A stretch of 23,216 nt of DNA from positions 1 through 23,216 of the forward strand of contig NZ_JOJL01000066.1 in the NCBI RefSeq assembly GCF_000721705.1, written 5' to 3'. Origin of the DNA: Actinoplanes subtropicus. Its GTDB lineage: Bacteria; Actinomycetota; Actinomycetes; Mycobacteriales; Micromonosporaceae. The translations under genes and the position numbers were made by a program. This document shows positions 2,874-20,331 of the stretch, piece by piece (position 1 is the stretch's first letter; each line of letters starts with the position of its first letter). The notes beneath the pieces were generated by a model that saw nothing but the letters and a program-made list of their open reading frames with translations, was not told the DNA's origin and did no database searches.

Positions 2874-2906
2874 GGTGACGTCCCTTCTGCTACCAAGGTT
2901 GTCGGA

Positions 2907-2924
2907 TTATGTTCGTAATTTAAT
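2907..2924 (-). promoter_or_regulatory. Shared TetR-type operator, copy 1 (fadB)
   Basis: The plus strand reads TTATGTTCGTAATTTAAT, one of six matching elements in the window. The palindromic core is TTATG-TT-CGTAA. On the minus strand the tail reads TAAATT, a -10-like TANNNT hexamer directly upstream of the core, so a bound repressor would cover the transcription start of fadB at 2873. Confidence 0.65.
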
Positions 2925-2963
2925 CAATGTCCACGAGTTGGCGTCATCGCGGGGAAAGGAGGG

Positions 2964-3791
2964 CTATGCCTGCTGGTTCGCGGCGCCGAGGTATTTGCCG
3001 AGGTGTAGCTCCACCTCATCGGCGCCCAGGTCGGCGACGAGCTTGCCGAAGCCGGGCGCCCGGTCCTGGAATCCCGGCCAGGTGAGCGAGGTCAGGAATT
3101 CTCCGTACGCCGTGACCAGGTCGGCGTCCGGCGGCAGAGATGCCCGGTTGACCTGTGCCTTGGCGGCGGCCAGTGCGGTCTTGTCGAAGGAGGCGAGGCG
3201 GGCCGCTAGGGCGTCGACGAAGCTGTCCAGTTCGGCGTCGGGCATGGCGCGGGTGACCCAGCCGTAGCGCTCGGCGAGATCGGCGTCGTAGTCGTCGCTG
3301 CTGAGGATGGCTTCCAACGCCCGGTCCCGGCCGATCAGCCGAGGGAGGCGTTCGGTGCCGCCGCCGCCGGGAAGCAGGCCACCGCCGACCTCGGGATGGC
3401 CGAACACCGCGTGCTCGCGGCTGGCGTAGCGCAGGTCGCAGGCCAGCGCCAGTTCGTTGCCGCCGCCTCGAGTCCGCCCGCGGATGGCGGCGATGCTGAT
3501 GAACGGCGCCTTCGACAGCCGCAGGACGAGATCAACGGTGGCCGGCAGCGAGCCCTCGGCCGGGACGAAGCCGGCCGCCTGGGTGAGGTCGAAGTGGTTG
3601 AAGAAGTAGTCGGGGGTGCTGCTGGTGAAGACGACGACCTGCACCTGCGGGTCCTCGGTCATCTCCACCACGAGATCGCGCAGCGTTGCGACGGTCTCCG
3701 GCAGCATCAGATTCACCGGAGGGTTCGCGAACGTGATCTTCCGGATCTGCGGGGTCAGTCGTTCGAAGCTGATCGTGCTGGACTGGGTCAT
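2964..3791 (-). CDS. Enoyl-CoA hydratase/isomerase family protein (copy 1)
   Basis: A 275-aa crotonase-fold protein. The ATG at 3791 is chosen because CAAGGAG lies 6 nt upstream; an in-frame start 30 nt earlier lacks one. The family signature is seen as RGRTRGGGNELALACDLR (about 105-121) with Glu113, and FGHPEVGGGLLPGGGGTERL (130-149) with Glu134, so both catalytic acids of a hydratase are present. It should act on an acyl-CoA in the cytoplasm. It lies upstream of fadB on the same strand, but fadB has its own operator, so the two may be separately promoted. A paralogue of identical length is at 12816-13643, about 60% identical by eye. Confidence 0.9.
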   Translation of the reverse strand: MTQSSTISFERLTPQIRKITFANPPVNLMLPETVATLRDLVVEMTEDPQVQVVVFTSSTPDYFFNHFDLTQAAGFVPAEGSLPATVDLVLRLSKAPFISIAAIRGRTRGGGNELALACDLRYASREHAVFGHPEVGGGLLPGGGGTERLPRLIGRDRALEAILSSDDYDADLAERYGWVTRAMPDAELDSFVDALAARLASFDKTALAAAKAQVNRASLPPDADLVTAYGEFLTSLTWPGFQDRAPGFGKLVADLGADEVELHLGKYLGAANQQA

Positions 3792-3924
3792 CGCGTTCTC
3801 CTTGAAGGTTTGCAGGACCACTCAGCGTGGGCTGTACAGCGCGGAAAGCTGGTCTGTGTCTGGGTGCGTGCACCAACGAGGCCCGTCGCCAGGCATGGGT
3901 CGCAGCCATTGCCGGTGCATGGCC

Positions 3925-4339
3925 TCATTGGCCGAGTTCGGTGGCTTTCGCGAGCAGTTCGTGCTGCGGGACGACATGGTCGACGGCCCCGTTCGCGAGA
4001 GACTGGGCGGGCGTGAGCGGCGTGCCCTCGAGGAGGGCGACCAGGGCCTTGTGGGTGCCGATCAGGCGGTCAGGCGGGGGCTGCCGCCACCGCCCGTCAT
4101 GACTCCGAGCAGGATCTCGGGCATCGGGTTGCAGTACTAGGCGAGCGCGGCGTCGAGACCGAGAGCCGAACCGTTGAGGGTGGCGACGAAGGTAACGCCG
4201 CTGCGGTTCATCCGCAGGAACGTCTTGTTCATGCGCCCGAGCTGAATGGCTCCCCACCGCGGGGTCTTGCGCAACACCGGCTCCAGCGCAGCCGCCCGGT
4301 CCGCGCCGGGCGTCCGGCGGACCGTGACGGCCCCCGCAG
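3925..4339 (-). pseudogene. Decayed enoyl-CoA hydratase (crotonase) gene
   Basis: Reading the minus strand directly after the fusion gene's stop, one frame gives FLRMNRSGVTFVATLNGSALG, a crotonase oxyanion region, then an in-frame TAG at 4139-4137, then EILLGVMTGGGGSPRL. A frameshift near 4080 moves to another frame giving RLIGTHKALVALLEGTPLTP and a family-like C-terminal part ending DHVVPQHELLAKATELGQ before a stop at 3925. The GLEIALACDHR-type segment carrying the first catalytic Glu is missing, so there is an internal deletion as well. It resembles the crotonase part of FadB/FadJ-type proteins more than its intact neighbour at 2964. Confidence 0.8.
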
Positions 4340-4342
4340 CCG

Positions 4343-6088
4343 TCAGAACATGGTGTTGTCGTTAGCGGAGTTCTCCGGCACGGCCTGCGCGGCGGACCAG
4401 TGTTCGACGATCTTTCCGTCCCTGACGCGGAAGAGTTCGAGGACCGCCCAGCCAGGCGCGCCCGGTGTGTCGATGTAGTGGCTGTGGACGGCGACCAGGT
4501 CGCCCTCGGCGATGACCCGCTTCGGCACCACGCTGAGCTGCGGGAACTGTGCGAAGTACGCGCCGAGGCCGGCTTTCGCGCCTGCCGCACCGTCGGGGGT
4601 GTCCGGGTGGTGCTGGTGGTACTCGGTGCCGATGTAGGTGTCGATGGCGGTCAGGTCCTTGTTCACCATGAGCTGGTCGAAGAAGGCTGTGACCAGTTTC
4701 TTGTTGTAGGCGGTGTACCACCGCTGTCCTGGCGCCTCGGTCTGCGGACCGCTGAGGGTGGCGAACATGTCGTTGCCGCTGGCCGTGGTCGCTGGGACTT
4801 CTTGCAGGACGTCCCAGTGCTCGGCGATCTTCCCCTCCTGGAAGCGGAAGATGTCGAACACGGCCATTCCCGGGGTGCCCGGGACGAGGACGCTGTGGGA
4901 GTGCAGGAGCACCATGTCACCGTCGGAGAAAGCCCGCTTTTCGTGGTGCACGGCGTCCGGGAACTGCTGCTGCATTCCGGCACCGAAGGCTTTCATGGCC
5001 TCGGGGCCGTCGGGCGCGAGGGGGTTGTGCTGGATGTAGTCCGGCCGTACGACCCGGTCGATGACGGCCGTGTCGCCTCCCGTAAACACGGCTTTGAGGA
5101 CCTGGGCGGCGATCTGCGCCTTCCCTGCCTCGGCAACGGTGAGCACGATTTTGCCGGTGGTGCGGCCGGTTTCGCCGAGGGCGTGGGCTTTGGCGGCCTG
5201 GTCGAGGGGGAAGATGGCCTCGATGTGCGCGCGCAGCGCGCCGGTCTCGACCAGGGCGGCGATGGCCTGTATGCCGGCGTGGTCGGCCTCGACCAGCAGC
5301 GACTCGTAGCGGATGCCGCGCTCGGCGATCGCCGCTAGTTCGGCAGGGTCGACGGGTACGGGCAGGATTGAGACGAGGGTGCCGCCCGGGCGCAGCACGG
5401 CCAGCGAGCGGGCGCGGCCGACCGGGTCGAACGAGACCGGGTCGAGAACCACGTCGATGTCCGTGACGGTCTGGGCGATGTCGACGCTGTGGTAGTCGAT
5501 CACCTCGTCGGCGCCCAGGGAGCGGACGAAGTCGTGTTTGGCGGTGCTGGCGGTGCCGATGACGTATGCGCCGCGGGATTTGGCGATCTGCACGGCGAGG
5601 TGACCGACGCCGCCGGCCGCAGCGTGGATCAGGACCCGCTGCCGCGGCTGGACGTCGGCGGTCTCGACCAGTGCCTGGTAGGCGGTGAGCGCGGCCAGCG
5701 GCAGGGCGCCGGCCTGGACGTGGTCGATGCCGGCGGGCTTATGCGTGAAAGCGCGGGCGGGCGCGGTCACGTATTCGGCATGTGCGCCGACTCCGCCCGG
5801 GTAGGGCAGCATGCCGAAGACCTCGTCGCCGGGTTTGAAAATGGTGACGCCCGTGCCGACGGCCTCGACGACGCCGGAGACGTCCCAGCCGAGCACCAGT
5901 GGCATCTGGGCGACGGTCATGGGCTGGGCGCGGTTCTTCCAGTCGGTCGGGTTGACGCCGGCGGCGTGGACCGCGACGAGGATCTCACTCAGTCCCGGCG
6001 CCGGTTTGGGAATCAGTGTCTCCTGAAGCACGTCGGGGGGTCCGTAGGTGTCCTGGCTGATGGCCCGCATGGTTTCCGGCTTCGTCAT
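4343..6088 (-). CDS. Fusion: zinc-less MDR oxidoreductase + two SnoaL-like domains
   Basis: A 581-aa protein with three parts. Residues 1-319 are an NADPH-dependent quinone-reductase-like MDR enzyme, with the nucleotide loop AAAGGVG (157-162) and no structural-zinc cysteine cluster. Residues about 324-441 and 460-581 are two SnoaL-like (NTF2-fold, COG4922-type) domains; each has a YIQHNP or YHQHHP-type motif, a V(x)HSH strand, a GKI(A/V)EHW motif and a similar C-terminal end (SGNDMF, NDNTMF). SnoaL domains normally stand alone, so the tandem fusion to an MDR enzyme is unusual. I chose ATG 6088; ATG 6124 and ATG 6070 are alternatives, none with a strong ribosome binding site. The open frame continues upstream but only as antisense of the GlxA-type gene. 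It is divergent from that regulator, with which it probably shares a control region. Substrate unknown. Confidence 0.88.
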   Translation of the reverse strand: MTKPETMRAISQDTYGPPDVLQETLIPKPAPGLSEILVAVHAAGVNPTDWKNRAQPMTVAQMPLVLGWDVSGVVEAVGTGVTIFKPGDEVFGMLPYPGGVGAHAEYVTAPARAFTHKPAGIDHVQAGALPLAALTAYQALVETADVQPRQRVLIHAAAGGVGHLAVQIAKSRGAYVIGTASTAKHDFVRSLGADEVIDYHSVDIAQTVTDIDVVLDPVSFDPVGRARSLAVLRPGGTLVSILPVPVDPAELAAIAERGIRYESLLVEADHAGIQAIAALVETGALRAHIEAIFPLDQAAKAHALGETGRTTGKIVLTVAEAGKAQIAAQVLKAVFTGGDTAVIDRVVRPDYIQHNPLAPDGPEAMKAFGAGMQQQFPDAVHHEKRAFSDGDMVLLHSHSVLVPGTPGMAVFDIFRFQEGKIAEHWDVLQEVPATTASGNDMFATLSGPQTEAPGQRWYTAYNKKLVTAFFDQLMVNKDLTAIDTYIGTEYHQHHPDTPDGAAGAKAGLGAYFAQFPQLSVVPKRVIAEGDLVAVHSHYIDTPGAPGWAVLELFRVRDGKIVEHWSAAQAVPENSANDNTMF

Positions 6089-6121
6089 GTGATCATCGTG
6101 CTCGCGGCGGGCTTCCGCTAC

Positions 6122-6160
6122 CATGGCAGGATCGCCAATTTTCGACGGGATCCTGCCATG
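6122..6160. promoter_or_regulatory. Perfect 12-bp inverted repeat in divergent promoter
   Basis: CATGGCAGGATC at 6122-6133 and GATCCTGCCATG at 6149-6160 are perfect inverted arms around a 15-bp AT-richer spacer. The right arm ends in the ATG start codon of the GlxA-type regulator, and the left arm ends in a possible ATG (6124, minus strand) of the fusion gene. It may be an operator for the regulator itself, or an RNA hairpin that hides the start codon. Confidence 0.6.
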
Positions 6161-7117
6161 AGCGACGTGCATCGAGTTGTCGTCCTCGCATCCCACGGCG
6201 TGTACCCCTTCGACCTGGGCATCCCCACGCGGGTCTTCGGCGTCGCCGATGGCCGCTACGAGGTGGTGACCTGCACCGCCGACGGTCGCCCGGTTCGCAC
6301 CAACGCCGACTTCTCGATCACCGTCGACCACGGGCCGGAGGTGTTGCGCACCGCCGACACCGTGGTCATCCCGCCGTTCGGTACCACCGACTTCAGTCGT
6401 CAAACGCCGGTCGACGTGGGGCAAGCCCTGGCGTTCGTGTCCCCCGGCGCCCGGATAGTGTCGATTTGCACCGGCGCGTTCGTGCTGGCCGCGGCGGGGC
6501 TGCTGGACGGGCGGCGGGCCACTACGCACTGGGCCGCCGCGGACGTCTTCCGTGAGTGGTATCCGCAGGTGGACCTGGACCCGAACGTGCTGTTCGTCGA
6601 TGAGGGTGACGTGCTGACCTCGGCCGGCGCCGCCTCCGGCATCGATATCTGCCTGCACCTGGTCCGCAAGGACCACGGCAGCGAACTCGCCAACCATGTG
6701 GCCCGCATGTGCGTCGTCCCCCCGTGGCGCGACGGGGGCCAGGCGCAATACATCGTCCGCCCGGTCCCCGATGCCACGGCGAACGACACATCCGCCGCAC
6801 GCCAGTGGGCGCTGCAGAACCTCCACCTGCCACTGACCCTGACCGACCTCGCCGAGCACTCCCGCATGAGCCTGCGCACCTTCGCCCGCCGCTTCAACGA
6901 AGAAGTCGGCATAAGCCCGGGGCGCTGGCTCATCCAGCAACGCATCGACCGGGCACAACACCTTCTGGAATCCACCGACCTGGCGGTCGACGAGATCGCC
7001 GTCCAGGTCGGCTTCGCCGGCGGCACGTCGCTGCGCGAGCACCTGCACGCGGCCATCGGCGTCTCACCGATCGCCTACCGGCGCACCTTCCGGGGAGCGC
7101 TGGCACAGAACCGGTGA
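6158..7117 (+). CDS. GlxA-family transcriptional regulator (DJ-1/PfpI + AraC)
   Basis: A 319-aa regulator. Residues 1-170 form a DJ-1/PfpI-like amidotransferase-fold domain, with Cys104 in the elbow ICTGAFVLAAAGLLDGR and TTHW at 122-125. Residues about 215-312 form an AraC-type DNA-binding domain with two helix-turn-helix units: TLTDLAEHSRMSLRTFARRF and, further on, AVDEIAVQVGFAGGTSLREH. The start ATG 6158 fits the family length and begins MSDVHRVV. Regulators of this type often control an adjacent catabolic gene in response to an unknown small ligand. The divergent oxidoreductase-SnoaL fusion is the natural target. The inverted repeat at 6122-6160 overlaps its start codon, suggesting autoregulation. 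Confidence 0.92.
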   Translation: MSDVHRVVVLASHGVYPFDLGIPTRVFGVADGRYEVVTCTADGRPVRTNADFSITVDHGPEVLRTADTVVIPPFGTTDFSRQTPVDVGQALAFVSPGARIVSICTGAFVLAAAGLLDGRRATTHWAAADVFREWYPQVDLDPNVLFVDEGDVLTSAGAASGIDICLHLVRKDHGSELANHVARMCVVPPWRDGGQAQYIVRPVPDATANDTSAARQWALQNLHLPLTLTDLAEHSRMSLRTFARRFNEEVGISPGRWLIQQRIDRAQHLLESTDLAVDEIAVQVGFAGGTSLREHLHAAIGVSPIAYRRTFRGALAQNR

Positions 7118-7196
7118 CCGAACGGCTCTGCCGCTGTCTCGCCCCGGCGGGGAACGGAGGACCGATACGGTGCCGACCCGGCGGGCGCGGCCGTCA

Positions 7197-7297
7197 TCCG
7201 CGCTGGCGCCAGGCGGCGAAGGGCTGGAGTATTTCCTCGGCGAACACCTGTCGCCTCAGCATCGCGACACCCCCGCGAGGGACTGCGCTTGGGCTGT
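7197..7297 (+). pseudogene. Fragment of a TetR regulator (ligand-domain part)
   Basis: In one plus-strand frame the sequence reads SALAPGGEGLEYFLGEHLSP followed by QHRDTPARDCAWAV. This lines up with the intact TetR at 15203-15775, which has SALPPGRAGLEEFLREYLSP then QHRDNPADGCPSAA, in roughly 20 of 32 positions by eye. Neither the DNA-binding part nor the C-terminal end is present. It lies between the GlxA-type gene and an orphan operator copy, so it is a remnant of a lost regulator gene. Confidence 0.75.
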
Positions 7298-7354
7298 AGA
7301 CAATCCTTCCCCCGTTGGCCGGCCAAGTCTTCCGCCGACCCGACCAAGTTGCGA

Positions 7355-7372
7355 GTATGGTTGTAATTTAAT
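7355..7372 (-). promoter_or_regulatory. Shared TetR-type operator, copy 2 (orphan)
   Basis: The plus strand reads GTATGGTTGTAATTTAAT, matching the other five copies. The minus-strand TAAATT -10-like hexamer points towards the TetR fragment and the GlxA-type gene, both on the opposite strand, so no intact gene follows it. It is probably the control site of a gene now lost. Confidence 0.55.
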
Positions 7373-7597
7373 TTCGTCCATCGTCTTGCCCTTGCTTCGA
7401 GACAAGGACCGCGATGTCAGCGGCCCCGATAGTGGCCGAGGCGCCGGCCCATGTGTGTCCGATGCTCTTCCGCCTCGGGCACGTCCTGTGGCTCAGCGGA
7501 CGGCGGAGCAACACCTTCAGGCAGGGAGTGAACCCGGAGGCGGATTTGAAGTTTGTCCCTTCGGCCGTGGCCGTCGAGGGGGCCACCTCGTGCGGCC

Positions 7598-8464
7598 CTA
7601 TCGCTGGAGGAAGTCGAGGGCCTTGGCGACGAACTGGGCGTGGAACTGGAAGATGCCGCCGTGCCCGGCGTCGGGGTAGATCACCAGCTCGCTGTCCGGC
7701 AGGCGCCTGGCCAGGTCGAGTGAGTTCGAGGTGGGCACCATCCGGTCGGTGTCGCCGTTGGCCACGAGCACGGGCTGACGGATGACGGAGAGGTCGTGTG
7801 GGCGTTCCAGTCCCCAGGCGTGGATGGCGTCGAGCTGGGAGAAGTAGGACTTGAGCTTGATCGGCTTGTCGCGGTTCTCGGTGCGTTCCTTCAGCCGGGC
7901 CAGGAACTCCTTGCCGGCCCGGCGGCCGTTCGGGGTCCGGGTGAAGAAGAGGAACTGTTTCGGGTCCTGGAAGGTGAGTAGCGCCCGGACGGTGTCGAGG
8001 TGCGAAAGTTTGGTGACGTTCTTGATGCCCTCGCCGCCGGCCGGGCCGGTGCCGGCGAGGATCAGTTTGCGGAAGAGCTGAGGGTCGCTCTGCACCATCA
8101 CCTGGGCGATCATGCCGCCCATGGAGAAGCCGAGCAGGTCGACCTGGGTCAGGCCGAGCGCGTGGATGAAGGTGAGAGCGTCGGCCGCCATCGCCTGGAT
8201 GGTCTTCGGGGTGGTGCCGGTGGAGGCGCCGACGCCCCGGTTGTCGAACGCGATGACGTGGTGTTTGGTGGCGAGGCCGTCGACGACCCGGGGGTCCCAG
8301 TTGTCCAGCACCGCGGCCAGATGGGTGACCAGCACCAGCGGGACGCCGGTCTTCGGGCCGAGCTCGCGGTAGGCGAACTCGACGCCACCGGCGGAGATCG
8401 TGCGGGTCGGCGCGGACTTGTATGACGTCACCACACCGTGACGTGCTTCCTGACTGTTGTCCAT
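7598..8464 (-). CDS. Alpha/beta hydrolase (288 aa)
   Basis: A 288-aa alpha/beta-hydrolase fold enzyme, cytoplasmic. Nucleophile Ser114 lies in GFSMGG, the acid is probably Asp240 (NGDTDRMVP), and the base is His268 (DAGHGG). The usual HG oxyanion motif is replaced by HLAAVLDNWDP, which I know from a common subfamily of uncharacterised hydrolases that also has the FDNRGVGAS and FTRTPNGRRAGKEFL stretches seen here. AAGGAG lies 6 nt upstream of ATG 8464. A TetR-type operator lies at 8548-8565. A degraded copy of its C-terminal part is at 14956-15165, evidence of an earlier duplication. Substrate unknown. Confidence 0.9.
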   Translation of the reverse strand: MDNSQEARHGVVTSYKSAPTRTISAGGVEFAYRELGPKTGVPLVLVTHLAAVLDNWDPRVVDGLATKHHVIAFDNRGVGASTGTTPKTIQAMAADALTFIHALGLTQVDLLGFSMGGMIAQVMVQSDPQLFRKLILAGTGPAGGEGIKNVTKLSHLDTVRALLTFQDPKQFLFFTRTPNGRRAGKEFLARLKERTENRDKPIKLKSYFSQLDAIHAWGLERPHDLSVIRQPVLVANGDTDRMVPTSNSLDLARRLPDSELVIYPDAGHGGIFQFHAQFVAKALDFLQR

Positions 8465-8547
8465 GACTATCTCCTTGTCTGATGAACTCTCGAGCGAGGC
8501 GGACCCAGTGCGATGGAGCGAGGTGACGCGCCCAGCGCGTGATCAAA

Positions 8548-8565
8548 GTATGACCGTAATATAAT
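8548..8565 (-). promoter_or_regulatory. Shared TetR-type operator, copy 3 (hydrolase)
   Basis: The plus strand reads GTATGACCGTAATATAAT. The minus strand gives TATATT, a -10-like hexamer, directly upstream of the palindromic core. It lies 84 bp upstream of the 7598-8464 hydrolase start. Confidence 0.65.
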
Positions 8566-8866
8566 TGCTGCGCAAGCCCCGGAGCTCATCAAATGCAGCT
8601 AGCAGACATACGAGGGTTTCCTCGTCGAGCGCTACCGCAAGGACGGCCCTTTCGAGCCGCCCCCGTGCCCGAACGACGGTGCGACGCGGGAGCGACAGCC
8701 CATCCGAGGAAGGGCCTGGCCTCTCCCAACGGGCTGGGCGAGCGCGCCGAAATGCGAGATCCTCACCGTGGCGGCCTTCGACGTCCCCGCCGGCCTCGGG
8801 CGCCACACCGTCGCGCAGCTGAACACACTCGATGGCAGGCTGGCTGACGAAGTCGGCGAGAGACGG
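8566..8866. other. 301-bp stretch without a convincing gene
   Basis: The plus strand from about 8605 has an open frame without a start, reading YEGFLVERYRKDGPFEPP and onward past 8866. A stop lies just before it and I recognise no family. It may be the remnant of a gene truncated at both ends, or chance in GC-rich DNA. No RNA gene or clear repeat is seen. Confidence 0.35.
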
Positions 8867-9754
8867 CTACCGGAGGAACTGCGACAGGGCGGCGGCTGTG
8901 GCGGCGGGCGCTTCCTCGGCGAGGAAATGTCCGGCGGAGGCGATGGCGGTCGTGGACACGTCGGTGGCGTAGGACTGCCAGACGGCGGCGACGTCGTAGT
9001 GCCGGCCGACGAATCCCGCGGTGCCCCACGTCACGAGCAGCGGGCAGGTGATCCGGTCGCCGCGGGTGTAGCCGGCGTCGTCGTGCTCCAGGTCGATGGT
9101 GGCCGCCGCGCGGTAGTCCTCGCAGCTCGCCGCGATGGCGGCGGGGTCGCGGAAGTGCGTGACGTACTGCTCGACGGCGGTCTCGTCGAATGGGTGGCCG
9201 CCGGCGGACCAGGCGGCCAGCTTTGCCCGGAGGTAGAACTCGGGGTCGCCGGCGATGAGGTGCTCCGGGAAGCCGGGCGGCTGGGCCAGGAAGAACCAAT
9301 GTTCGTAGGCCATCGCGAGGGCTGTGTCCGCGGTGGCGAAGACGTGCCGGGTGGGCACGATGTCCAGGACGGCGGCACGGCTGACCCGATCGGGGTGGTC
9401 GAGGCACATCCGGTGCACGACCCTTGCGCCACGGTCGTGTCCGACCGCGGCGAAGCGGTCGAAACCGAGACTCGCCATCACCGCGACCTGGTCCGCGGCC
9501 ATCGTTCGTTTGCTGTACTCGGCATGGTCGGTTCCCGCAGCCGGTTTCGTGGATCCGCCATAGCCGCGCAGGTCCGCCAGCACGACGGTGTGGCGCTCGG
9601 CCAGGATCGGGGCGACCTGATGCCACATCACGTGCGTCTGCGGATAGCCGTGCAGCAGCAGGACCGGTGGTCCGGTGCCGGCTGTGCGGCCGGTGATGCG
9701 GATCCCGTCGACGTCCACCTCGACTGGTGCGAACCCCGCGAGCAGCTGTGCCAT
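8867..9754 (-). CDS. Haloacetate (fluoroacetate) dehalogenase-like hydrolase
   Basis: A 295-aa alpha/beta hydrolase. It has the pattern of characterised fluoroacetate dehalogenases: nucleophile Asp107 with Arg108 and Arg111 (GHDRGARVVHR), acid Asp131 (VLDIVPT), base His276 (AGHFLAEEAP), and the halide-pocket candidates His152-Trp153 (YEHWFFLAQP) and Tyr214 (CEDYRA). In Rhodopseudomonas RPA1163 the equivalents are Asp110, Arg111, Arg114, Asp134, His280, His155, Trp156 and Tyr219, from memory. Such enzymes replace halogen on a 2-haloacid by hydroxyl through an aspartyl ester. ATG 9754 is preferred over GTG 9763 because GGGAG is well placed for it. An epoxide hydrolase role is the main alternative, but the Arg pair and Trp favour haloacids. 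It follows TetR 9902-10498 on the same strand. Confidence 0.8.
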   Translation of the reverse strand: MAQLLAGFAPVEVDVDGIRITGRTAGTGPPVLLLHGYPQTHVMWHQVAPILAERHTVVLADLRGYGGSTKPAAGTDHAEYSKRTMAADQVAVMASLGFDRFAAVGHDRGARVVHRMCLDHPDRVSRAAVLDIVPTRHVFATADTALAMAYEHWFFLAQPPGFPEHLIAGDPEFYLRAKLAAWSAGGHPFDETAVEQYVTHFRDPAAIAASCEDYRAAATIDLEHDDAGYTRGDRITCPLLVTWGTAGFVGRHYDVAAVWQSYATDVSTTAIASAGHFLAEEAPAATAAALSQFLR

Positions 9755-9795
9755 GTCGCCCACTCCCGCCTCGCGCTCTGCTGCCTGCTGTCGGT

Positions 9796-9880
9796 TCAGA
9801 GTTTGACGATCATCGTGCCGTGGTTCTCGCCGCGCATCAGCGCGAGGAACGCGTCCAGGATGGGGGCTCCGGCGCTGCGC
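9796..9880 (-). pseudogene. C-terminal fragment of an NADP-dependent oxidoreductase
   Basis: The minus strand reads APILDAFLALMRGENHGTMI then VKL and a TGA at 9798-9796. This matches the end of the MDR oxidoreductase family, whose members finish AFLxLLRGENxGKxLVRL. Nothing of the rest of the enzyme remains. It lies between the TetR stop and the dehalogenase-like gene, suggesting that an oxidoreductase gene was deleted here. Confidence 0.65.
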
Positions 9881-9901
9881 GTGAGACGCTGACGCTTCTG
9901 C

Positions 9902-10498
9902 TCAACCGGCGTCCTGTCGCCGGCCTTCGGTGCCGAGCAGTGTGAGGGCGCTCTGGATGCCCTGCTCGAGGACGACGTCCGCGAGGTGCCGATCGGCCAG
10001 GGCGCGGGAGAGTTGCAGCGTACCCACCATCAGAGCGTAGATGCTGAACGCCTGCACCCGTGCCGATCGCGGGTCTTGGGGCGCCACCCGGGCGGCGACG
10101 TCGTCGATGACGGTGAGGACACCGTCGGTGTACGCCCGTTTGGTCGCGTCCGCGCAACGGGCGATCTCGTCGAGCAGCGCGGCCGACGGGCAGCCGTGCT
10201 CGGGGCTGTCGCGGTGCTGGACCGAGAGATAGGTACGCAGGATCTGCTCGACCCCGGCATGGCCGGGCGCCGCCGCGCCGAGGGCCTCGCACTGCTCGCG
10301 GAGCTGGTCGGCGACCGCGGTGGCGACCAGGTCGTCCTTGGAGTCGAAGTGGGCATAGAAGGCGCCGTTGGTCAGGCCCGCGTCAGCCATGAGCGCGGCG
10401 ATCCCCGAGCCGTCGATGCCGTCGGCCTTGAATCGGCGCCCAGCCGCCTCGATGATGCGCCGCCGCGTCTCCTGCTTGCGCTCCCTGCCGTACCGCAC
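9902..10498 (-). CDS. TetR/AcrR-family transcriptional regulator (copy 1)
   Basis: A 198-aa regulator. The N-terminal helix-turn-helix spans about residues 10-56 (TRRRIIEAAGRRF ... IAALMADAGLTNGAFYAHF), and residues 57-190 form the ligand and dimer domain, which contains the QHRDSPEHGCPSAALLDEIARC stretch also seen in its paralogue. GTG 10498 is chosen because AAGGAG lies 8 nt upstream and the next upstream ATG adds 19 Arg-rich residues without family likeness. It is closely related to TetR 15203-15775. An operator copy at 10561-10578 precedes it, so it probably represses itself and the shared operator set. Ligand unknown; an acyl-CoA or hydrolase substrate is a guess. Confidence 0.9.
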   Translation of the reverse strand: MRYGRERKQETRRRIIEAAGRRFKADGIDGSGIAALMADAGLTNGAFYAHFDSKDDLVATAVADQLREQCEALGAAAPGHAGVEQILRTYLSVQHRDSPEHGCPSAALLDEIARCADATKRAYTDGVLTVIDDVAARVAPQDPRSARVQAFSIYALMVGTLQLSRALADRHLADVVLEQGIQSALTLLGTEGRRQDAG

Positions 10499-10560
10499 CC
10501 CGCACGCTCCTTCACTCGTCCGGCCGACGGCTGGTCGCCGCCTCCGGGCCCACATTGAGC

Positions 10561-10578
10561 GTACGGCCGTAATTTAAT
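10561..10578 (-). promoter_or_regulatory. Shared TetR-type operator, copy 4 (TetR copy 1)
   Basis: The plus strand reads GTACGGCCGTAATTTAAT. The 10-bp core TACGGCCGTA is a perfect palindrome. The minus strand gives TAAATT directly upstream of it. It lies 63 bp from the GTG of the 9902-10498 TetR gene. Confidence 0.7.
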
Positions 10579-10621
10579 TTCTTCCAACCTATTGCCCGAC
10601 GCCTCCTCCCGCCCTATGGTC

Positions 10622-10639
10622 GTATGAGCGTAATACAAA
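10622..10639. promoter_or_regulatory. Shared TetR-type operator, copy 5 (SDR remnant)
   Basis: The plus strand reads GTATGAGCGTAATACAAA. It is the most divergent copy and lacks the minus-strand TANNNT hexamer, which fits it serving the plus-strand gene starting 18 bp downstream. It is framed by GGTCGT (10618-10623) and ACGACC (10639-10644). Confidence 0.6.
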
Positions 10640-10656
10640 CGACCGGGGAACCGACG

Positions 10657-10788
10657 ATGACAGCGACACGGCTGGTGGCACTCGTGACGGGTGCGTCCAC
10701 GGGCATCAGCGTGCTGCGCCACATCGCGCCGGCCCGGACCTTCGACAGCAGCGTCCGCAACCTCAACCGGATGCCGAGCCGACGCTGA
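10657..10788 (+). pseudogene. Internally deleted short-chain dehydrogenase (43 aa)
   Basis: ATG 10657, with GGGGAA just upstream, opens a 43-codon frame. Residues 1-17 read MTATRLVALVTGASTGI, the SDR start with the TGxxxGI cofactor motif. Residues 19-43 read VLRHIAPARTFDSSVRNLNR and MPSRR, typical of an SDR C-terminus. The roughly 200 residues between, including the catalytic Tyr and Lys, are gone, apparently by an in-frame deletion. Promoter, ribosome binding site and both ends are intact, so a 43-aa peptide could still be made, but it cannot be an enzyme. It lies upstream of and collinear with the hydrolase at 10894. Confidence 0.75.
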
Positions 10789-10893
10789 CCGTCGAGCCGG
10801 CGAACACGGCTGTACGGCAGACCAAGCACCTTGTTGCATCACCGAACCGGCTGGGCGCGACGAGCGTGCCCGAGCACAGACAGGAGTGTCATC

Positions 10894-11805
10894 GTGGAAA
10901 TCAGTCCCCAGGCGCAGCAGTTCGCGCAGTTCCTGGAAAGCGTGCGCGCCAAATCGTCCACGCCCGGCCTGGACCTGGGCATCGTCCGCGACATCGTCGA
11001 AACGCACCACCTGGCGTCAACCGAGCCGGAGGGCGTCACCTACGCCGAGGTCGACGCCGGCGGCGTCCCCGCCCTCTGGTGCATCCCCGCCGGCGCCGAC
11101 CCCGACCGGGCGCTGCTGCACTTCCACTTCGGCGGCTCGGTCACCGCGTCGATGCATTCGGACCGCAAGGCCGCCGGGCACATCGCGAAGGCCGCCGGGA
11201 TCCGCTCGCTGGTCGTGGATTTCCGCTTGGCCCCCGAACACCCCTACCCGGCACAACTCGACGACGCCGAGACCGCCTACCGGTGGCTGCTGGCACAGGG
11301 CTACCAGCCGCAGCACATCGGCAGCACCGGCCACTCCATCGGCGGCACCCTCGCGATCATGCTGCCGCTACGGCTGCTCGCCAACGGTGAACCCACCCCC
11401 GGCGCGATCGTCAGCATCTCCCCGTGGACCGATCTCACCATCGCCAACCCCAAGGTCGACGAGAACGCCGAACACGACAAGATGCTCAGCCGCACCACCC
11501 TCGAACTCTTCCGGGGAGCCTGGCTGCAGGACCCGGCCCTGGACTTCGCCGACCCGCGGATCAGCCTCGTCAACGCCGACCTGACCGGCCTGCCACCCAC
11601 CGTCGTGCACTACGGCGAGTACGAAACCCTCGCCGGCGACGGCGCCGAACTTGCCCAACGCCTCACCGAATTCAAGGTCACCTCCGAGGTCCACCCGATG
11701 CCCCAGGGACAGCACTCGTTCATCCTCGCAGCCGACCGCGTACCCGAAGTCGACCAGGCAATCGGGCAGATGGGCCAGTGGCTGCGCCGGCACCTCGGCG
11801 CCTGA
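10894..11805 (+). CDS. HSL-type alpha/beta hydrolase (esterase)
   Basis: A 303-aa enzyme of the hormone-sensitive-lipase/steryl-acetyl-hydrolase group. The oxyanion motif is HFHFGG (76-81, for the usual HGGG), followed by the family block FRLAPEHPYPA (110-120), nucleophile Ser148 in GHSIGG, acid probably Glu244 (YGEYETL) and base His274 (GQHSF). It likely hydrolyses short acyl esters. GTG 10894 is chosen because CAGGAG sits 7 nt upstream. It heads a plus-strand run with the hydrolase at 11852 (46-bp gap) and the crotonase at 12816, likely one operon that began with the deleted SDR. Confidence 0.9.
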   Translation: MEISPQAQQFAQFLESVRAKSSTPGLDLGIVRDIVETHHLASTEPEGVTYAEVDAGGVPALWCIPAGADPDRALLHFHFGGSVTASMHSDRKAAGHIAKAAGIRSLVVDFRLAPEHPYPAQLDDAETAYRWLLAQGYQPQHIGSTGHSIGGTLAIMLPLRLLANGEPTPGAIVSISPWTDLTIANPKVDENAEHDKMLSRTTLELFRGAWLQDPALDFADPRISLVNADLTGLPPTVVHYGEYETLAGDGAELAQRLTEFKVTSEVHPMPQGQHSFILAADRVPEVDQAIGQMGQWLRRHLGA

Positions 11806-11851
11806 ACGGCGGACCTCACCCGTCATCCCAACAACCGAAAAGGACAGCGTC

Positions 11852-12706
11852 ATGAGTACTTTTCTGGCTGACAAAGCCGAGAACCTGTCGGTGGAGGGCC
11901 CTTCCGCCACGTTCACCTACCGGCGTATCGGCCGGCCGGGCGGGACACCGGTGGTGCTGCTGAACCGATTCCGGGCCACCATCGACTGGTGGGACCCGGA
12001 GTTCCTGGACCTACTCGCCGCTGACCACGACGTGATCCTCTTCGACACCGTCGGGACCGGCTACTCCACCGGTGAGCCCCGCGACTCCCTGGACGGATTC
12101 GCCGACGGCGCCATCGAGTTCATCGAGACCCTCGGCCTGCCCCAGGTCGACTTGCTCGGCTGGTCGATGGGCGGCTTCGTGGCCCAGCGCATCGCCCTGC
12201 GCCGCCCGGAACTGGTGCGCCGGCTCGTCGTGGCGGGAAGCGGCCCGAACGGCTGGCTGCCCGGGGCCCCGGCCATGAACGAGAAGGTCGTGGCCATCAT
12301 GCAAAAGCCGGGCGGCGGCAACGCGGACGACCTGCTGTACCTGTTCTACCCCGACACCGAAACCGGACGCGCCGCCGGACGACGGCACCTCGACCACATC
12401 TCGACCCGCCTGAACGCCGGCGGCCCGGCCGTGTCCGAGACCACCGCCCAGGGCATGTTCACCGCGGTGAGCCAACTCCTTCAAGTCACGCCGGAGCAGG
12501 TGCGAGCGGAACTGGAAGCCATCAAACACCCCCTGCTGTACATCTGCGGACAGCACGACGTGATGGTGCCCGCCTACAACTCGTACGCGGCGATCCGGTA
12601 CCTCGACGCGGCCACCTTGATCATCTACGGCGACGCCGGGCACGCCCTGATGTTCCAACACGCCAAGACCTTCGTCGCGGACGTGACCACCTTCCTCGCC
12701 GCCTGA
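11852..12706 (+). CDS. Alpha/beta hydrolase (284 aa)
   Basis: A 284-aa alpha/beta hydrolase. Nucleophile Ser105 lies in GWSMGG, acid Asp236 in CGQHDVMVP and base His264 in GDAGHALMF. As in the 7598-8464 enzyme, the HG oxyanion motif is replaced, here by NRFRATIDWWDPEF, and the strand FDTVGTGYSTG corresponds to FDNRGVGAST there, so the two belong to related subfamilies. AAAAGGAC lies upstream of ATG 11852. It starts 46 bp after the preceding hydrolase and is followed by the second crotonase, consistent with co-transcription. Substrate unknown. Confidence 0.9.
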   Translation: MSTFLADKAENLSVEGPSATFTYRRIGRPGGTPVVLLNRFRATIDWWDPEFLDLLAADHDVILFDTVGTGYSTGEPRDSLDGFADGAIEFIETLGLPQVDLLGWSMGGFVAQRIALRRPELVRRLVVAGSGPNGWLPGAPAMNEKVVAIMQKPGGGNADDLLYLFYPDTETGRAAGRRHLDHISTRLNAGGPAVSETTAQGMFTAVSQLLQVTPEQVRAELEAIKHPLLYICGQHDVMVPAYNSYAAIRYLDAATLIIYGDAGHALMFQHAKTFVADVTTFLAA

Positions 12707-12815
12707 CCCAGCCCGCCGATACGGCTCGGTGAACGGGCCGGATTGGCAGGCCGCCGCCTCGTCTCACCCCGGCCGGAAAAGGCCTTCCCCGACCCGACAC
12801 CTCAAGGAGACCGCG

Positions 12816-13643
12816 ATGACCCAGCCCAGCACGATCAGCGTGCAAGCACCGACACCCAAGATCCGCACTGTCACGTTCGCGAACCCGCCGGTGAACCTGA
12901 TGGTTCCGGAGACCGTCCACCGGCTGCGCGAGGTGATCACCCAGTTCAGCGACGATCCGCGGGTTCAGGTCGTCGTCTTCACCAGCGACACGCCCGGCTT
13001 CTTCATCAACCACTTCGATCTCGCCCAAGCCGGCGAACTGCTGACCCAGGACGCGGACGCCACACCCGCCTGGATCGACCTTGTCGAGCGGCTGTCCACG
13101 GCACCGTTCATCAGCATCGCCGCCATCCGCGGCCGGACCCGCGGCGCGGGTAACGAGCTGGCCCTGGCGTGCGATCTGCGCTACGCCAGCCGCGAGCAGG
13201 CGGTGTTCGGCCAGCCGGAGGTCGGTATCGGCATCCTCCCCGGCGGCGGGGGCACCCAACGCCTGACCCGCCTGCTCGGCCGCGACCGGGCCCTGGAAGT
13301 CGTGCTGTCCGCCGACGACTACGACGCCGACACGGCGCACCAATCCGGCTGGGTGACCCGGGCCGTACCCGACGCCGACCTGGACGGTTTCGTCGACGCG
13401 ATGGCGTCACGCCTGGCATCGTTTGACAAGGGCACGCTGCAGGCCGCCAAGGCGCAGATCAACCAGGCGACGCTGCCGCCGCGGACCGAACTGCTCGCGG
13501 CATACACCGCATTCGCCACGTCGCTGACCTCGCCCGCATTCGCCGCGCGCGCCCAGGAAATGGGAAAGCTCGCCGAACAGAAGGGCCTCGACGTGGAACT
13601 GCGCATGGGCGACTACCTCGGCGTCGCCAACCAGCAGATCTGA
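12816..13643 (+). CDS. Enoyl-CoA hydratase/isomerase family protein (copy 2)
   Basis: A 275-aa crotonase, the same length as copy 1 at 2964-3791 and about 60% identical by eye; both start MTQ(S/P)STIS and end (G)ANQQ(A) or (G)VANQQI. Catalytic acids are Glu114 (AGNELALACDLR) and Glu135 (FGQPEVGIGILPGGGGTQRL). ATG 12816 is chosen because CAAGGAG lies 6 nt upstream, the same arrangement as in copy 1; an upstream in-frame ATG has no such site. It is the third enzyme of the plus-strand run. The pair probably arose by duplication and then specialised for different acyl-CoAs. Confidence 0.9.
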   Translation: MTQPSTISVQAPTPKIRTVTFANPPVNLMVPETVHRLREVITQFSDDPRVQVVVFTSDTPGFFINHFDLAQAGELLTQDADATPAWIDLVERLSTAPFISIAAIRGRTRGAGNELALACDLRYASREQAVFGQPEVGIGILPGGGGTQRLTRLLGRDRALEVVLSADDYDADTAHQSGWVTRAVPDADLDGFVDAMASRLASFDKGTLQAAKAQINQATLPPRTELLAAYTAFATSLTSPAFAARAQEMGKLAEQKGLDVELRMGDYLGVANQQI

Positions 13644-13667
13644 TTCCCCGCGTGACCGGCCGCGCGA

Positions 13668-13805
13668 ATGCCACGGTACGGGGGCGCAGCACCACCAGGC
13701 GACCGGCGGCGAATCATCGAGACGGCCGGACACCGGCTCGGGCAGGACGACGACGTCGACGGGCTCTGGTATCGGCCCGCTGGTGGCCGGCGCCGGGGCG
13801 ATTCG
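13668..13805 (+). pseudogene. Fragment of a TetR regulator (DNA-binding part, frameshifted)
   Basis: ATG 13668 opens MPRYGGAAPPGDRRRIIETA followed by GHRLGQDDDVDG, which lines up with the start of both intact TetR proteins (RY..., RRRIIEAAG or QRIIKVAGHRFKQDGIDG). After DG a one-base shift restores GSGIGPLVAGAGA, matching GSGIAALMADAGL. No recognisable ligand domain follows. Together with the 7197-7297 fragment this makes four traces of this TetR subfamily in one window. Confidence 0.75.
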
Positions 13806-13911
13806 CCGCGCACACGCCGCGGGCCGGGTACAGATCCAGCCGCCCGCCCAACGCCATGACCATCGCGAGCGCTCCTGCACACTCCACCTCACCGATCGAC
13901 CAGGAGTCACC

Positions 13912-14904
13912 ATGAAGGCCTTCGTCGTCACCCACTACGGACCCGACGGGCTCCGCGCGGCCGACATCCCCACACCCCCGGTAGGGCCTCGTGACGTCCT
14001 GGTCGACGTCAAGGCCGCCAGCGTCAACCCCCTCGACAAGATGGTGCGCAACGGCGAGTTCAAGCAACTCCTGAAGTACCAGCGCCCGTTCACCCTGGGC
14101 CACGACGTCGCCGGAATCATCACCCGAGTCGGCGCCGACGTGCACGAATTCAAGGCCGGCGACGAGATCTACGCACGACCACGCGACCTGCGGACCGGCA
14201 CCTTCGCCGAATCGATCGCGATCGACGCCGACGACGTGGCCATCAAGCCCGCCTCGCTCTCCTTCGCCGAGGCCGCCGCCGTACCGCTGGTGGCGCTCGC
14301 CGCTTGGCAGAGCCTCGTCGACCTCGCCGACGTACGCCCCGGGCAGAAGGTGCTCGTGCACGCCGGTGCGGGCGGCCTCGGCTCGACCGTCATCCAGTTC
14401 GCCAAACATCTCGGCGCGTACGTCGCCACCACCGCCCACACCCGCGACCTCGACAAAGTCCGAGACCTCGGCGCCGACGAAGCCATCGACTACACCACCA
14501 CCGAGTTCACCGACGTCCTCCACGGCTACGACGTCGTCCTCGACTCCCTCGGCCCGGCCAGCCTCGAAAAATCACTGACGATCCTCAAGCCCGGCGGACT
14601 CGCCATCAGCGTGGTCGGCCCACCCGACCCGGCCTTCGCCGCACAGCTCGGCCAGCCGCTGCTCAAACCGGTCATGGCCCTGCTCAGCCGCAAAGTCCGC
14701 CGCCGGGCGAAGCGACTGGGCGTCCGATACTCGTTCTTCTTCATGCACGCCGACGGCACCCAGCTCAAGGCCCTGGCAGCACTCTACGACGCCGGCACCC
14801 TGCGCCCCGTCCTCGACCGCACCTTCGATTTCGACGACACCCTCGACGCCCTCGCCTACGTCGAACAGGGCAAGGCCAACGGCAAGATCGTGATCACCCG
14901 CTGA
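13912..14904 (+). CDS. NADP-dependent zinc-less MDR oxidoreductase
   Basis: A 330-aa medium-chain dehydrogenase/reductase of the quinone-oxidoreductase type. The N-terminal catalytic domain starts MKAFVVTHYGPDGLR; the nucleotide-binding loop is HAGAGGLG (150-157) in the Rossmann domain; the C-terminus is GKIVITR. Structural and catalytic zinc cysteines are absent. It probably reduces an enone or quinone with NADPH. CAGGAG lies 6 nt before ATG 13912. It is separated from crotonase copy 2 by 268 bp holding the TetR fragment. It is related in type, but not closely, to the MDR half of the 4343-6088 fusion and has no SnoaL domains. Confidence 0.92.
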   Translation: MKAFVVTHYGPDGLRAADIPTPPVGPRDVLVDVKAASVNPLDKMVRNGEFKQLLKYQRPFTLGHDVAGIITRVGADVHEFKAGDEIYARPRDLRTGTFAESIAIDADDVAIKPASLSFAEAAAVPLVALAAWQSLVDLADVRPGQKVLVHAGAGGLGSTVIQFAKHLGAYVATTAHTRDLDKVRDLGADEAIDYTTTEFTDVLHGYDVVLDSLGPASLEKSLTILKPGGLAISVVGPPDPAFAAQLGQPLLKPVMALLSRKVRRRAKRLGVRYSFFFMHADGTQLKALAALYDAGTLRPVLDRTFDFDDTLDALAYVEQGKANGKIVITR

Positions 14905-14936
14905 CCACGACGCCGGTGCAGCCGCACTGCCGTTGA

Positions 14937-14955
14937 CCGTCCCCAGCCGGGACGG
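14937..14955 (+). terminator. Hairpin behind the MDR gene
   Basis: CCGTCCC (14937-14943) and GGGACGG (14949-14955) form a 7-bp stem with a 5-nt loop, 32 bp after the stop of the 13912-14904 gene. No T-run follows, as is common in actinomycetes. Confidence 0.45.
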
Positions 14956-15165
14956 CTCCGTCATCGGCCAGACGTACTCGTGGCCAACGGCGAAAGCGAC
15001 CGGATGGTGCCGACCCGGAACCCGCTCGACCGGGCACGACGGCTGCCGGACAGCGATCTGGTGATTGATCTACCCGACGCGGGGCACGGCGGGATCTTCC
15101 CGTTTCACGCGCAGTTCGTCGACAAGAGGCGGCCCCTAATGCTGTCGAACCGACGGTCGTGGGGG
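14956..15165 (+). pseudogene. C-terminal fragment of an alpha/beta hydrolase
   Basis: The plus strand reads VLVANGESDRMVPTRNPLDR then ARRLPDSDLVIDLPDAGHGG and IFPFHAQFVDK. The intact hydrolase at 7598-8464 has VLVANGDTDRMVPTSNSLDL, ARRLPDSELVIYPDAGHGG and IFQFHAQFVAK. The fragment keeps the acid and His regions but has one extra residue in LVIDLPDAG and loses the family end after QFVDK. There is no nucleophile part, so it is a non-functional copy of that gene. Confidence 0.85.
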
Positions 15166-15170
15166 CCGCC
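15128..15170. terminator. 9-bp-stem hairpin between convergent genes
   Basis: GGCGGCCCC (15128-15136) and GGGGCCGCC (15162-15170) are perfect arms around a 25-nt loop, itself containing ACCGACGGT. It lies between the plus-strand hydrolase fragment and the 3' end of the minus-strand TetR gene (stop at 15203), where a two-way terminator would be expected. Confidence 0.5.
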
Positions 15171-15202
15171 CGGACGGCATCCGGGCTGCTGCGGCGCCAT
15201 GC

Positions 15203-15775
15203 TCAGCGAAGGAACTCCTGGGCGTTCTGCATACCCAATTCGAGGACCTCGTCGGCGAACTTCGGGTCGGACAGGGAGCGGGACAGCTGCAGTGTGCCGA
15301 CCGCCATCGTGTACAGCCCGAGCGCCTTCGCCCGCGCGGATTGCGGATCGTCAGGAGCCAGGCGGCCGGCGATCTCGTCGACGATGACCCGCGCACCGTC
15401 GGTGTAGGCATCCTTGGCTGCGGTCGGGCAGCGCCCGATCTCGTCGAGCAGCGCGGCGGACGGGCATCCGTCGGCGGGGTTGTCCCGGTGCTGCGGCGAC
15501 AGATACTCGCGCAGGAACTCTTCCAGTCCCGCCCGGCCGGGTGGCAACGCGCTGAAACTCTCGGCCTGGGAGCCCAACTGGTCGGCGACCACGTTGGCGA
15601 CCAGGTCGTCCTTGGACGCGAAATGGGCGTAGAACGCGCCGTTGGTCAATCCCGCGTCCGCCATCAAGGTGGCGACGCCGGAACCATCGATACCGTCCTG
15701 CTTGAACCGATGACCGGCCACCTTGATGATCCGCTGCCGCGTCGCCCGCTTGTGCTCCTTGTCGTAACGCGCCAC
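15203..15775 (-). CDS. TetR/AcrR-family transcriptional regulator (copy 2)
   Basis: A 190-aa regulator. The helix-turn-helix region (about residues 10-56) reads TRQRIIKVAGHRF ... VATLMADAGLTNGAFYAHF, nearly the same as in copy 1 at 9902-10498. The ligand domain carries LSPQHRDNPADGCPSAALLD, again shared. GTG 15775 is chosen because GGAGGT lies 5 nt upstream. An operator copy at 15832-15849 precedes it, so self-repression is likely. The near-identical recognition helices suggest that both TetR proteins bind the same sites, with different ligand domains allowing two inputs. Confidence 0.9.
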   Translation of the reverse strand: MARYDKEHKRATRQRIIKVAGHRFKQDGIDGSGVATLMADAGLTNGAFYAHFASKDDLVANVVADQLGSQAESFSALPPGRAGLEEFLREYLSPQHRDNPADGCPSAALLDEIGRCPTAAKDAYTDGARVIVDEIAGRLAPDDPQSARAKALGLYTMAVGTLQLSRSLSDPKFADEVLELGMQNAQEFLR

Positions 15776-15831
15776 CGGGCACCTCCAATCGCTCGCCAAG
15801 GGCCTTACGGCGCTCACCCGCAACTATAGCC

Positions 15832-15849
15832 TTACGTGCGTAATATTAC
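15832..15849 (-). promoter_or_regulatory. Shared TetR-type operator, copy 6 (TetR copy 2)
   Basis: The plus strand reads TTACGTGCGTAATATTAC, with core TTACG-TG-CGTAA. The minus strand gives TAATAT upstream of the core as a -10-like hexamer. It lies 57 bp from the GTG of the 15203-15775 TetR gene. Confidence 0.65.
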
Positions 15850-15939: not shown

Positions 15940-16490
15940 TGATGTGGCCGCAGCAAGCTCGACAGCCTGCGAGTCCTTGAGGAAGCGGGTGTGAACCCAC
16001 CGTCGTACGCCACCGCCAAACGGCGGCTGTCGATGTTCGCCGACCCGACATGGCGGCAGCGGCTGGCTGCGGCGTGTGCCACGCAGGCCGGGCTGGGCCC
16101 GGCGTCGCTGGTGCTCTACGACGTATCGACGCTGTAATTCGAGACCGATGCCGGCGACGGGTGCCGCGAGCTGGGGTTTTCCAAGGACTGCCGTCTGGAG
16201 CCGCAGATCACCATCGGTCTGCTGACCGATGCGTCCGGGTTCCCGCTGATGGTTGAGGCGTTCGAGGGCAACAAGGCCGAGACGACCACAATGCTCCCAA
16301 CGATCCGGGCGTTCATGGCAGCGCACCGCCTACCGGACGTGACGGTGGTGGCCGACGCGGGCATGATCTCGGCGGCGAACCAGAGCGATCGAGGACGCCG
16401 GACTGTCGTTCATCCTCGGCGCCCGCATCCCCGACGTCCCTTACTGTCAGCACCGGCGACGTGGTCGACGCGGCGGTGGCGGCGCCCCAT
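15940..16490 (+). pseudogene. Decayed IS1634-type transposase
   Basis: From about 15940 the plus strand reads GRSKLDSLRVLEEAGVNPPS then YATAKRRLSMFADP, continuing to LVLYDVSTL, an in-frame TAA at 16135-16137 (in place of a Tyr codon) and FETDAGDGCRELGFSKDCRL, then EPQITIGLLTDASGFPLMVE and VTVVADAGMISAANQ. This is the DDE transposase of IS1634-type elements. A two-base loss near 16385 shifts the frame to AIEDAGLSFILGARIPDVPY, after which the similarity ends near 16445. Both the N-terminal and C-terminal parts are missing and I see no terminal repeats, so the element is dead. It separates the TetR/hydrolase island from the sugar operon. Confidence 0.82.
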
Positions 16491-20265: not shown

Positions 20266-20300
20266 CGTGGGTGCCTCCAACGGTGAGTGGGCGGTGCCGG

Positions 20301-20320
20301 GTGGGGCCGGCCGGCCCCAC
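20301..20320 (-). terminator. Perfect 20-bp palindrome, intercistronic hairpin
   Basis: GTGGGGCCGG at 20301-20310 is followed at once by its exact inverse, CCGGCCCCAC. In RNA it would form a very stable hairpin (loop of a few nt) between the binding-protein stop at 20332 and the permease start at 20265. Such hairpins often protect the upstream message or cut downstream reading, giving more binding protein than permease. Confidence 0.7.
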
Positions 20321-20331
20321 ACGGTCGCTGG

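Follow-up and report, generated by a model that had tools for sequence, protein, structure and literature searches.

The subject of this study is a 23,216-nucleotide contig of Actinoplanes subtropicus (NZ_JOJL01000066.1; hereafter the window), in which six short palindromic elements are very likely to be operators of a group of NemR-like TetR-family repressors that would repress their own genes and neighbouring genes. An earlier reading of this sequence (the original prediction) had proposed one local regulon with two repressors; judged by its sequence the regulon is real, and it is wider than that reading saw. In the mechanism that we propose, a repressor dimer would bind a palindrome of about 22 bp lying on the core promoter, and the bound repressor would shut its own gene and its neighbours, chiefly genes for a short-chain dehydrogenase/reductase (SDR) and for alpha/beta hydrolases, with an enoyl-CoA hydratase (ECH) or quinone-oxidoreductase-like gene also shut in some relatives, until an inducer frees the repressor from DNA. 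Two sites are often staggered by 8 or 15 bp, as though dimers bind in pairs.

The six elements, at 2907, 7355, 8548, 10561, 10622 and 15832, had been placed correctly and are all exact matches to KTAYGNNYGTAAT. With up to one mismatch allowed, this pattern has eight matches in the window (the six elements and two reverse-strand readings of those sites) against 0.25 expected, and none of 100 dinucleotide shuffles got to eight. Genome-wide searches covered the 11.26-Mb genome (G000) of which the window is one 23-kb contig, and returned 11 exact matches against three for the reversed control: six in the window, four on a second contig (C17) and one on a third (C23). The four C17 matches represent three places within 14.3 kb, one palindromic place being matched on both strands; the single C23 match is located inside a called gene and is probably due to chance. 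Among the other 66 genomes of the genus (67 in all with G000), the pattern occurs 1.2 times on average and at most seven times. The matches are clustered in the window and on C17, and therefore random scatter, which the original prediction had named as a threat to the idea, does not refute the regulon. Searching with the bare palindrome TTACGNNCGTAA and one mismatch allowed gave no useful signal: 44 matches on each strand against 40 for its reversed control.

Conservation of the sites upstream of orthologues, a further point on which the prediction had been staked, was also found. A named genome collection was scanned with a TetR alignment, and the best 80 of 189 TetR relatives were used as the orthologue set; 43 of these loci are titled Streptomyces, the others belonging to Nonomuraea, Lentzea, Kribbella, Amycolatopsis, Frankia, Micromonospora, Mycobacterium and more. 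A matrix made from the six window sites only, applied to 150 bp upstream at a threshold of at least 10 bits, matched 76 of the 80 TetR orthologues, as compared with 63/3645 random stretches, 51/1600 shuffled TetR upstream regions and 20/707 unrelated genes in the same loci (14/679 away from regulon-type genes). Genes in these loci were called with a simple codon-usage caller and their starts are therefore approximate; by family, a site was present within 150 bp upstream of 90/111 TetR, 36/54 SDR, 23/48 hydrolase and 5/8 ECH genes. Because the same site precedes the repressor gene in most of the examined relatives carrying that gene, we infer that the repressors themselves very probably bind there. 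Three close relatives of the repressors (L073, L081 and L086) come from metagenome bins titled Chloroflexi, and these may be mislabelled or transferred.

Proximity to the repressor gene was also seen at the scale of whole genomes. In a sample of 25 genomes (G000 and 24 others chosen from the genomes of the 80 loci), KTAYGNNCRTAAT matches 82 distinct places, 57 of them no more than 15 kb from such a TetR gene, and the density of these places is at least 53 per Mb near TetR against 0.12 per Mb elsewhere. G000 itself contributes nine of the 57 near places and one of the 25 far ones, and without it the near share is 48/72. Five of the 67 genomes of the genus have a TetR homologue at E <= 1e-40, namely G000, G009 and three others. 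The TetR proteins of these three are 53-54% identical and all have an exact match to KTAYGNNYGTAAT 56-57 bp before the first matched residue (3/3); in all three the site lies between TetR and a divergent quinone-oxidoreductase-like gene, and two of the three also have a site before a hydrolase gene.

Several observations weigh against an interpretation of the sites as operators of this regulon. Only 4/38 quinone-oxidoreductase-like genes of the 80 loci have a site (0/20, 3/17 and 1/1 by type), as do 6/23 genes for hormone-sensitive-lipase-like (HSL) hydrolases and 1/16 of the oxidoreductase-SnoaL type; 46 of the 352 sites in the loci fall inside called genes, and 25 of the 82 pattern places lie far from TetR. 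The gene calls of the 80 relative loci include no fadB homologue, and the site before the fadB-like gene of the window therefore marks a candidate target. Four of the 80 TetR orthologues (L074, L091, L099 and L112, all retained in the count) lack an upstream site; the L112 match begins at query residue 8, the L099 frame ends after seven residues and L074 apparently has one half-site left. Among homologues of 36-44% identity a site is present in just 2/15. Finally, the 80 loci are not independent, given the 43 Streptomyces titles and the identity of some upstream regions between species. Genes internal to operons need no site of their own. Two of the sampled genomes, G090 and G098, have the TetR gene and no exact match to KTAYGNNCRTAAT, and none of the eight AraC-type genes in the 80 loci has an upstream site.

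The scarcity of sites among the 36-44% homologues indicates that the operator belongs to a close group and not to all NemR-like proteins. An operator common to all NemR-like TetR proteins was accordingly rejected: of the 28 homologues with 27-44% identity (L006-L033), 2 reach 10 bits in the 200 bp that precede the start of the match. Three of the homologues, of 37-40% identity (L015, L016 and L018), have longer related palindromes upstream, TTAGATTACG...TCTAA or TCCAA, which suggests that the wider subfamily may use variants of the operator.

The same genome carries a second cluster, on C17, and this cluster and that of the window form paralogous blocks. On C17, two operator positions matching 10561 and 10622 separate a TetR gene from an intact SDR gene, and more sites are found before a quinone-oxidoreductase-like gene and an alpha/beta hydrolase gene. 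This paralogy, together with the several gene remnants in the window, is what would be expected if the repeated sites were passive leftovers of gene-block duplication rather than working operators. However, the sites stand, with unrelated flanks, before gene families that are unrelated to one another, and they persist in other genera, in which the consensus past the operator is short; we regard such a passive origin as highly improbable.

In the window, the operators (all without assigned strand) were predicted to precede a fadB gene, a hydrolase gene, two TetR genes and a deleted SDR gene. This placement holds for five of them, and the fadB-like, hydrolase and two TetR identities agree with protein scans, but the element at 7355 is more than 200 bp from any gene start. 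Operator 1 (2902..2923, core 2907-2918) lies 34 bp before the minus-strand gene for a FadB/FadJ-like enoyl-CoA hydratase/3-hydroxyacyl-CoA dehydrogenase (825..2873), a candidate target. Operator 2 (7350..7371, core 7355-7366) is probably a relic, because it lacks a nearby gene start and has flanks like those of the TetR1 promoter by eye. Operator 3 (8543..8564, core 8548-8559) lies before the minus-strand alpha/beta hydrolase gene (7598..8464), a predicted target that is also preceded by a site on C17 and in G009, G070 and G050. Operator 4 (10556..10577, core 10561-10572) is upstream of TetR1 and in the same place at the C17 paralogue. Operator 5 (10609..10638, core 10622-10633, with a weaker overlapping match at 10614-10626) precedes the deleted SDR gene, and its core also precedes the intact SDR gene of C17 (L001). 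Operator 6 (15827..15848, core 15832-15843) is upstream of TetR2; in G009, C17b and C23 the corresponding position has a related site. That all six face the same way, as claimed, holds for the string; the core, however, is near-palindromic, and the site at 10622 is opposite relative to its gene, the plus-strand SDR remnant.

Alignment of the sites led to a revision of the operator's length, originally put at 18 bp. In 107 non-redundant sites with both strands pooled, conservation reaches five bases past the 12-base core, with T at -5 (85%), A/G at -3 (93%) and A/C at -1 (99%), followed by KTAYG. In gene-oriented sites (n=111), the outer T at -5 is present in 94, its mirror A in 96 and both in 85. 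Both outer arms are thus conserved, and the operator would be a palindrome of about 22 bp, TNRNMKTAYG-NN-CRTAMKNYNA.

These flanks bear on the suggestion that a TANNNT hexamer on the minus strand is a -10 element and that the repressor covers the transcription start. As had been noted, the hexamer adjoins five of the six window cores. Among the gene-oriented sites, TANNNT touches the core (at -4 or -5) on the promoter side in 44/111 and on the other side in 34/111, as fits a symmetric arm, and on these counts we consider the flanking hexamer to be largely the outer arm of the operator. Another arrangement again occurs in 24/105 TetR promoters, where TTG[GA] at the left edge is followed 16 bp on by TANNNT, which would put the operator in the spacer. 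The original suggestion fares better at particular promoter types. TetR1-type and hydrolase sites favour the promoter side: TANNNT is found there in 9/17 TetR1-type sites against 1/17 on the other side, and at hydrolase sites the corresponding counts are 4/5 against 1/5 and 9/19 against 6/19. In addition, 32/59 SDR and 10/14 quinone-oxidoreductase-like sites have TTGC and TANNNT at a distance of 17-18 bp, the -10 falling at the core or immediately before it, and a pair so spaced near the core occurs at 6/30 hydrolase sites. We therefore set the hexamer aside as a general -10 on the both-side counts, a role that seems unlikely overall, though not for every promoter type, a -10 being possible at TetR1-type and hydrolase promoters. 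For each of these promoter-like pairs the operator would overlap the polymerase site.

Spacing between sites was not uniform, with peaks at 8 bp (23 pairs), 62 bp (16 pairs) and 15 bp (12 pairs), and 61-62 bp separate the TetR-side sites from the SDR-side sites. The symmetry of the motif itself accounts for part of the 8-bp peak. The peaks suggest pairs of dimers, and hence a putative cooperativity. Overlapping operators staggered by 8 bp with a common central block are seen at 10609-10638 and, in L053, upstream of TetR (23 pairs in 22 loci); in such operators, three half-sites could serve two dimers.

The two repressors of the window are encoded on the minus strand. TetR1 (9902..10498, 198 aa) matches TetR_N (PF00440) at 5.1e-9 on a longer reading (9902-10555), and TetR2 (15203..15775, 190 aa), with 63% identity to TetR1, matches PF00440 at 3.4e-8; both helix-turn-helix scores are above Pfam's cut-off. 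The original prediction described their recognition helices as almost the same, and the resemblance proved stronger than this: DAGLTNGAFYAHF is identical in the five TetR proteins of G000 and in one G009 protein. Across 86 aligned rows, 68 are identical at these residues, 17 have one or two changes and the last, L099, is a 7-residue piece. The peptides RFK[QA]DGID and M[AT]DAGLTN were used in the orthologue scan, and invariance at their residues is therefore partly due to selection; residues 45-51 of the recognition helix lie outside both peptides. Mean pairwise identity, without L099, is 84% over residues 2-57 and 67% over residues 58-188; between TetR1 and TetR2 the values are 77% and 58% respectively.

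A cysteine, Cys103, is present in 85 of the 86 rows, the remaining row being the L099 piece, and aligns with Cys106 of NemR in a profile comparison (96% probability, 153 columns, 21% identity). The NemR sensor residues are Cys106 and Lys175, and NemR-like sensors control an Old Yellow Enzyme (nemA) or glyoxalase gene. Since the hhalign alignment ends at NemR residue 171, the position of Lys175 was reached by ungapped extension, which puts Arg165 (at least 97% of rows) there. No nemA-type or glyoxalase gene was found among the window proteins scanned, and the C17 neighbours were named only by their similarity to the window, no family search having been made. Cys103 supports sensing of electrophiles or oxidants and does not show it; our tentative choice for the likeliest type of inducer would be a reactive electrophile or oxidant acting through this residue. 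Alternatively, the repressors may respond to a metabolite handled by the controlled enzymes, for example an acyl-CoA or an ester product, which would occupy the usual TetR pocket, with Cys103 having a structural role in the wider subfamily. Acyl-CoA- and ester-processing types are indeed among the controlled or neighbouring enzymes, and the GCP motif also occurs in the solved structures 2fd5, the closest by sequence, and 3qbm, so its occurrence extends beyond the known redox sensors. The retention of the cysteine in 85/86 rows, its alignment with the NemR sensor and the SDR and quinone-oxidoreductase-like neighbours, which fit the handling of carbonyls or enones, speak against the metabolite, to which we would assign a little under an even chance.

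The number of repressors also had to be revised. Of the proposal of one regulon with two repressors, the clustered and conserved local sites stand; the count of repressors does not, as G000 has five close TetR paralogues, of which the window and C17 carry two each and C23 one, and each has a site 56-62 bp upstream of its gene (5/5). It is plausible that the two repressors have sites in common and respond to different ligands, and this raises the issue of whether the paralogues share all sites. Under such cross-repression, a target would be released only once every paralogue present had met its own inducer. The identical recognition helix in all own-genome paralogues, the scoring of autoregulatory sites of both clades on one matrix and a C-terminal part more divergent than the helix-turn-helix part are all consistent with sharing. 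Single-TetR genomes are informative here, as 13 of the 25 sampled genomes have one such TetR (E <= 1e-40) and several of them have a site between TetR and a divergent SDR or hydrolase gene. In L077, L114 and L116, sites are present before TetR and also before SDR/hydrolase genes away from the TetR promoter; because these single-TetR loci carry both kinds of site, one repressor probably reads both. On the other side, N-terminal arm residues differ between the paralogues (MRYGRERKQ against ARYDKEHKR), and a TGAYG half-site in 5/7 autoregulatory sites of the TetR2 clade, as taken from tree order, could favour one paralogue; this half-site also occurs at three other loci of the same listing and is absent from the window's own TetR2 site. 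Complete sharing thus appears nearly, though not fully, an even prospect. A more far-reaching idea is that the five same-helix paralogues form one shared-operator network, in which any paralogue could act on any site and a target would open with all inducers or by stepwise relief. We consider this idea doubtful at best; if true, decayed clusters such as that in the window would act as extra binding sites tuning the rest.

A local autoregulated TetR regulon is of a well-known kind; the operator and the repressor group appear to be new. The fold family is shared with Escherichia coli NemR (TetR family, nemR-nemA), to whose Cys106 the Cys103 of these repressors corresponds, but the repressors studied here are just 21% identical to NemR. 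The NemR box, too, is unlike their operator. Among the 120 homologues listed, several carry the Joint Genome Institute (JGI) name 'repressor of nem operon'. According to the available portion of PMC13178969, NemR is an autoregulated local repressor, to which the present repressors can be likened, with one critical conserved cysteine. The same portion describes AltR of Pantoea ananatis, a NemR-related TetR repressor with an inverted-repeat operator at its own promoter, a target-gene cluster and a conserved Cys100 needed for release; AltR differs in its operator, CAATCTAC-N6-GTAGATTG, and in its targets, which are thiosulfinate tolerance genes (PMC13178969). Streptomyces TetR regulators such as SCO7222 likewise have a divergent TetR-enzyme layout with one to three palindromes between the genes, but their operators differ in sequence, e.g. 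TGGAACG/TCGTTCCA for SCO7222 (available portion of PMC3511530). CssR of Corynebacterium glutamicum is also a TetR stress regulator with an imperfect palindrome; it differs in having the operator TAA(G)TG-N13-CA(G)TTA, cysteines reported to lack a redox role and targets that include an ABC transporter operon (PMC8176726, in the portion available). In agreement with the original prediction, a search of open-licence literature with the six exact operator strings and related topics turned up no TetR operator of such a form; of the eleven papers containing one of those strings, none is, by title, on a TetR operator. The analysis yields a defined operator, repressor group and target list for a regulon in many actinobacterial genera, as judged from the named relatives. 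How near-identical paralogous repressors share or divide their sites is a general question for duplicated regulators, and a repressor-operator pair of this type could serve as a sensor part.

The copy of the cluster in the window is partly decayed. The predicted SDR deletion was confirmed: the plus-strand remnant (10654..10767) encodes residues 1-18 and then 248-268 of a 272-residue C17 homologue, residues 19-247 being gone, and downstream of it is a plus-strand gene for an HSL hydrolase (10894..11805). Other remnants are a 35-residue fragment of a further TetR gene (7182..7286, plus strand; 63% identity to TetR2), the last 20 residues of a quinone oxidoreductase-like protein (9799..9858, minus strand), whose C17 homologue follows TetR, and a C-terminal fragment of an alpha/beta hydrolase (14917..15141, plus strand), which is convergent with TetR2, as on C17. 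An AraC-type gene lies at 6164-7117. The gene at 4343-6088 combines a quinone-oxidoreductase domain with a C-terminal internal repeat and has a 69% identical copy on C17 (L002); the repeat resembles two SnoaL-like domains. Short transposase-like fragments were seen by eye in translations of 16249-16400 and 22985-23179, and may account for the decay of the window and for the contig ends. The region from 16513 to 22714 holds a separate gene set without these sites, in which sugar isomerase-like, Gfo/Idh-like, ABC transporter ATPase, permease, lipoprotein-like and LacI-type regulator genes were named by eye from translations.

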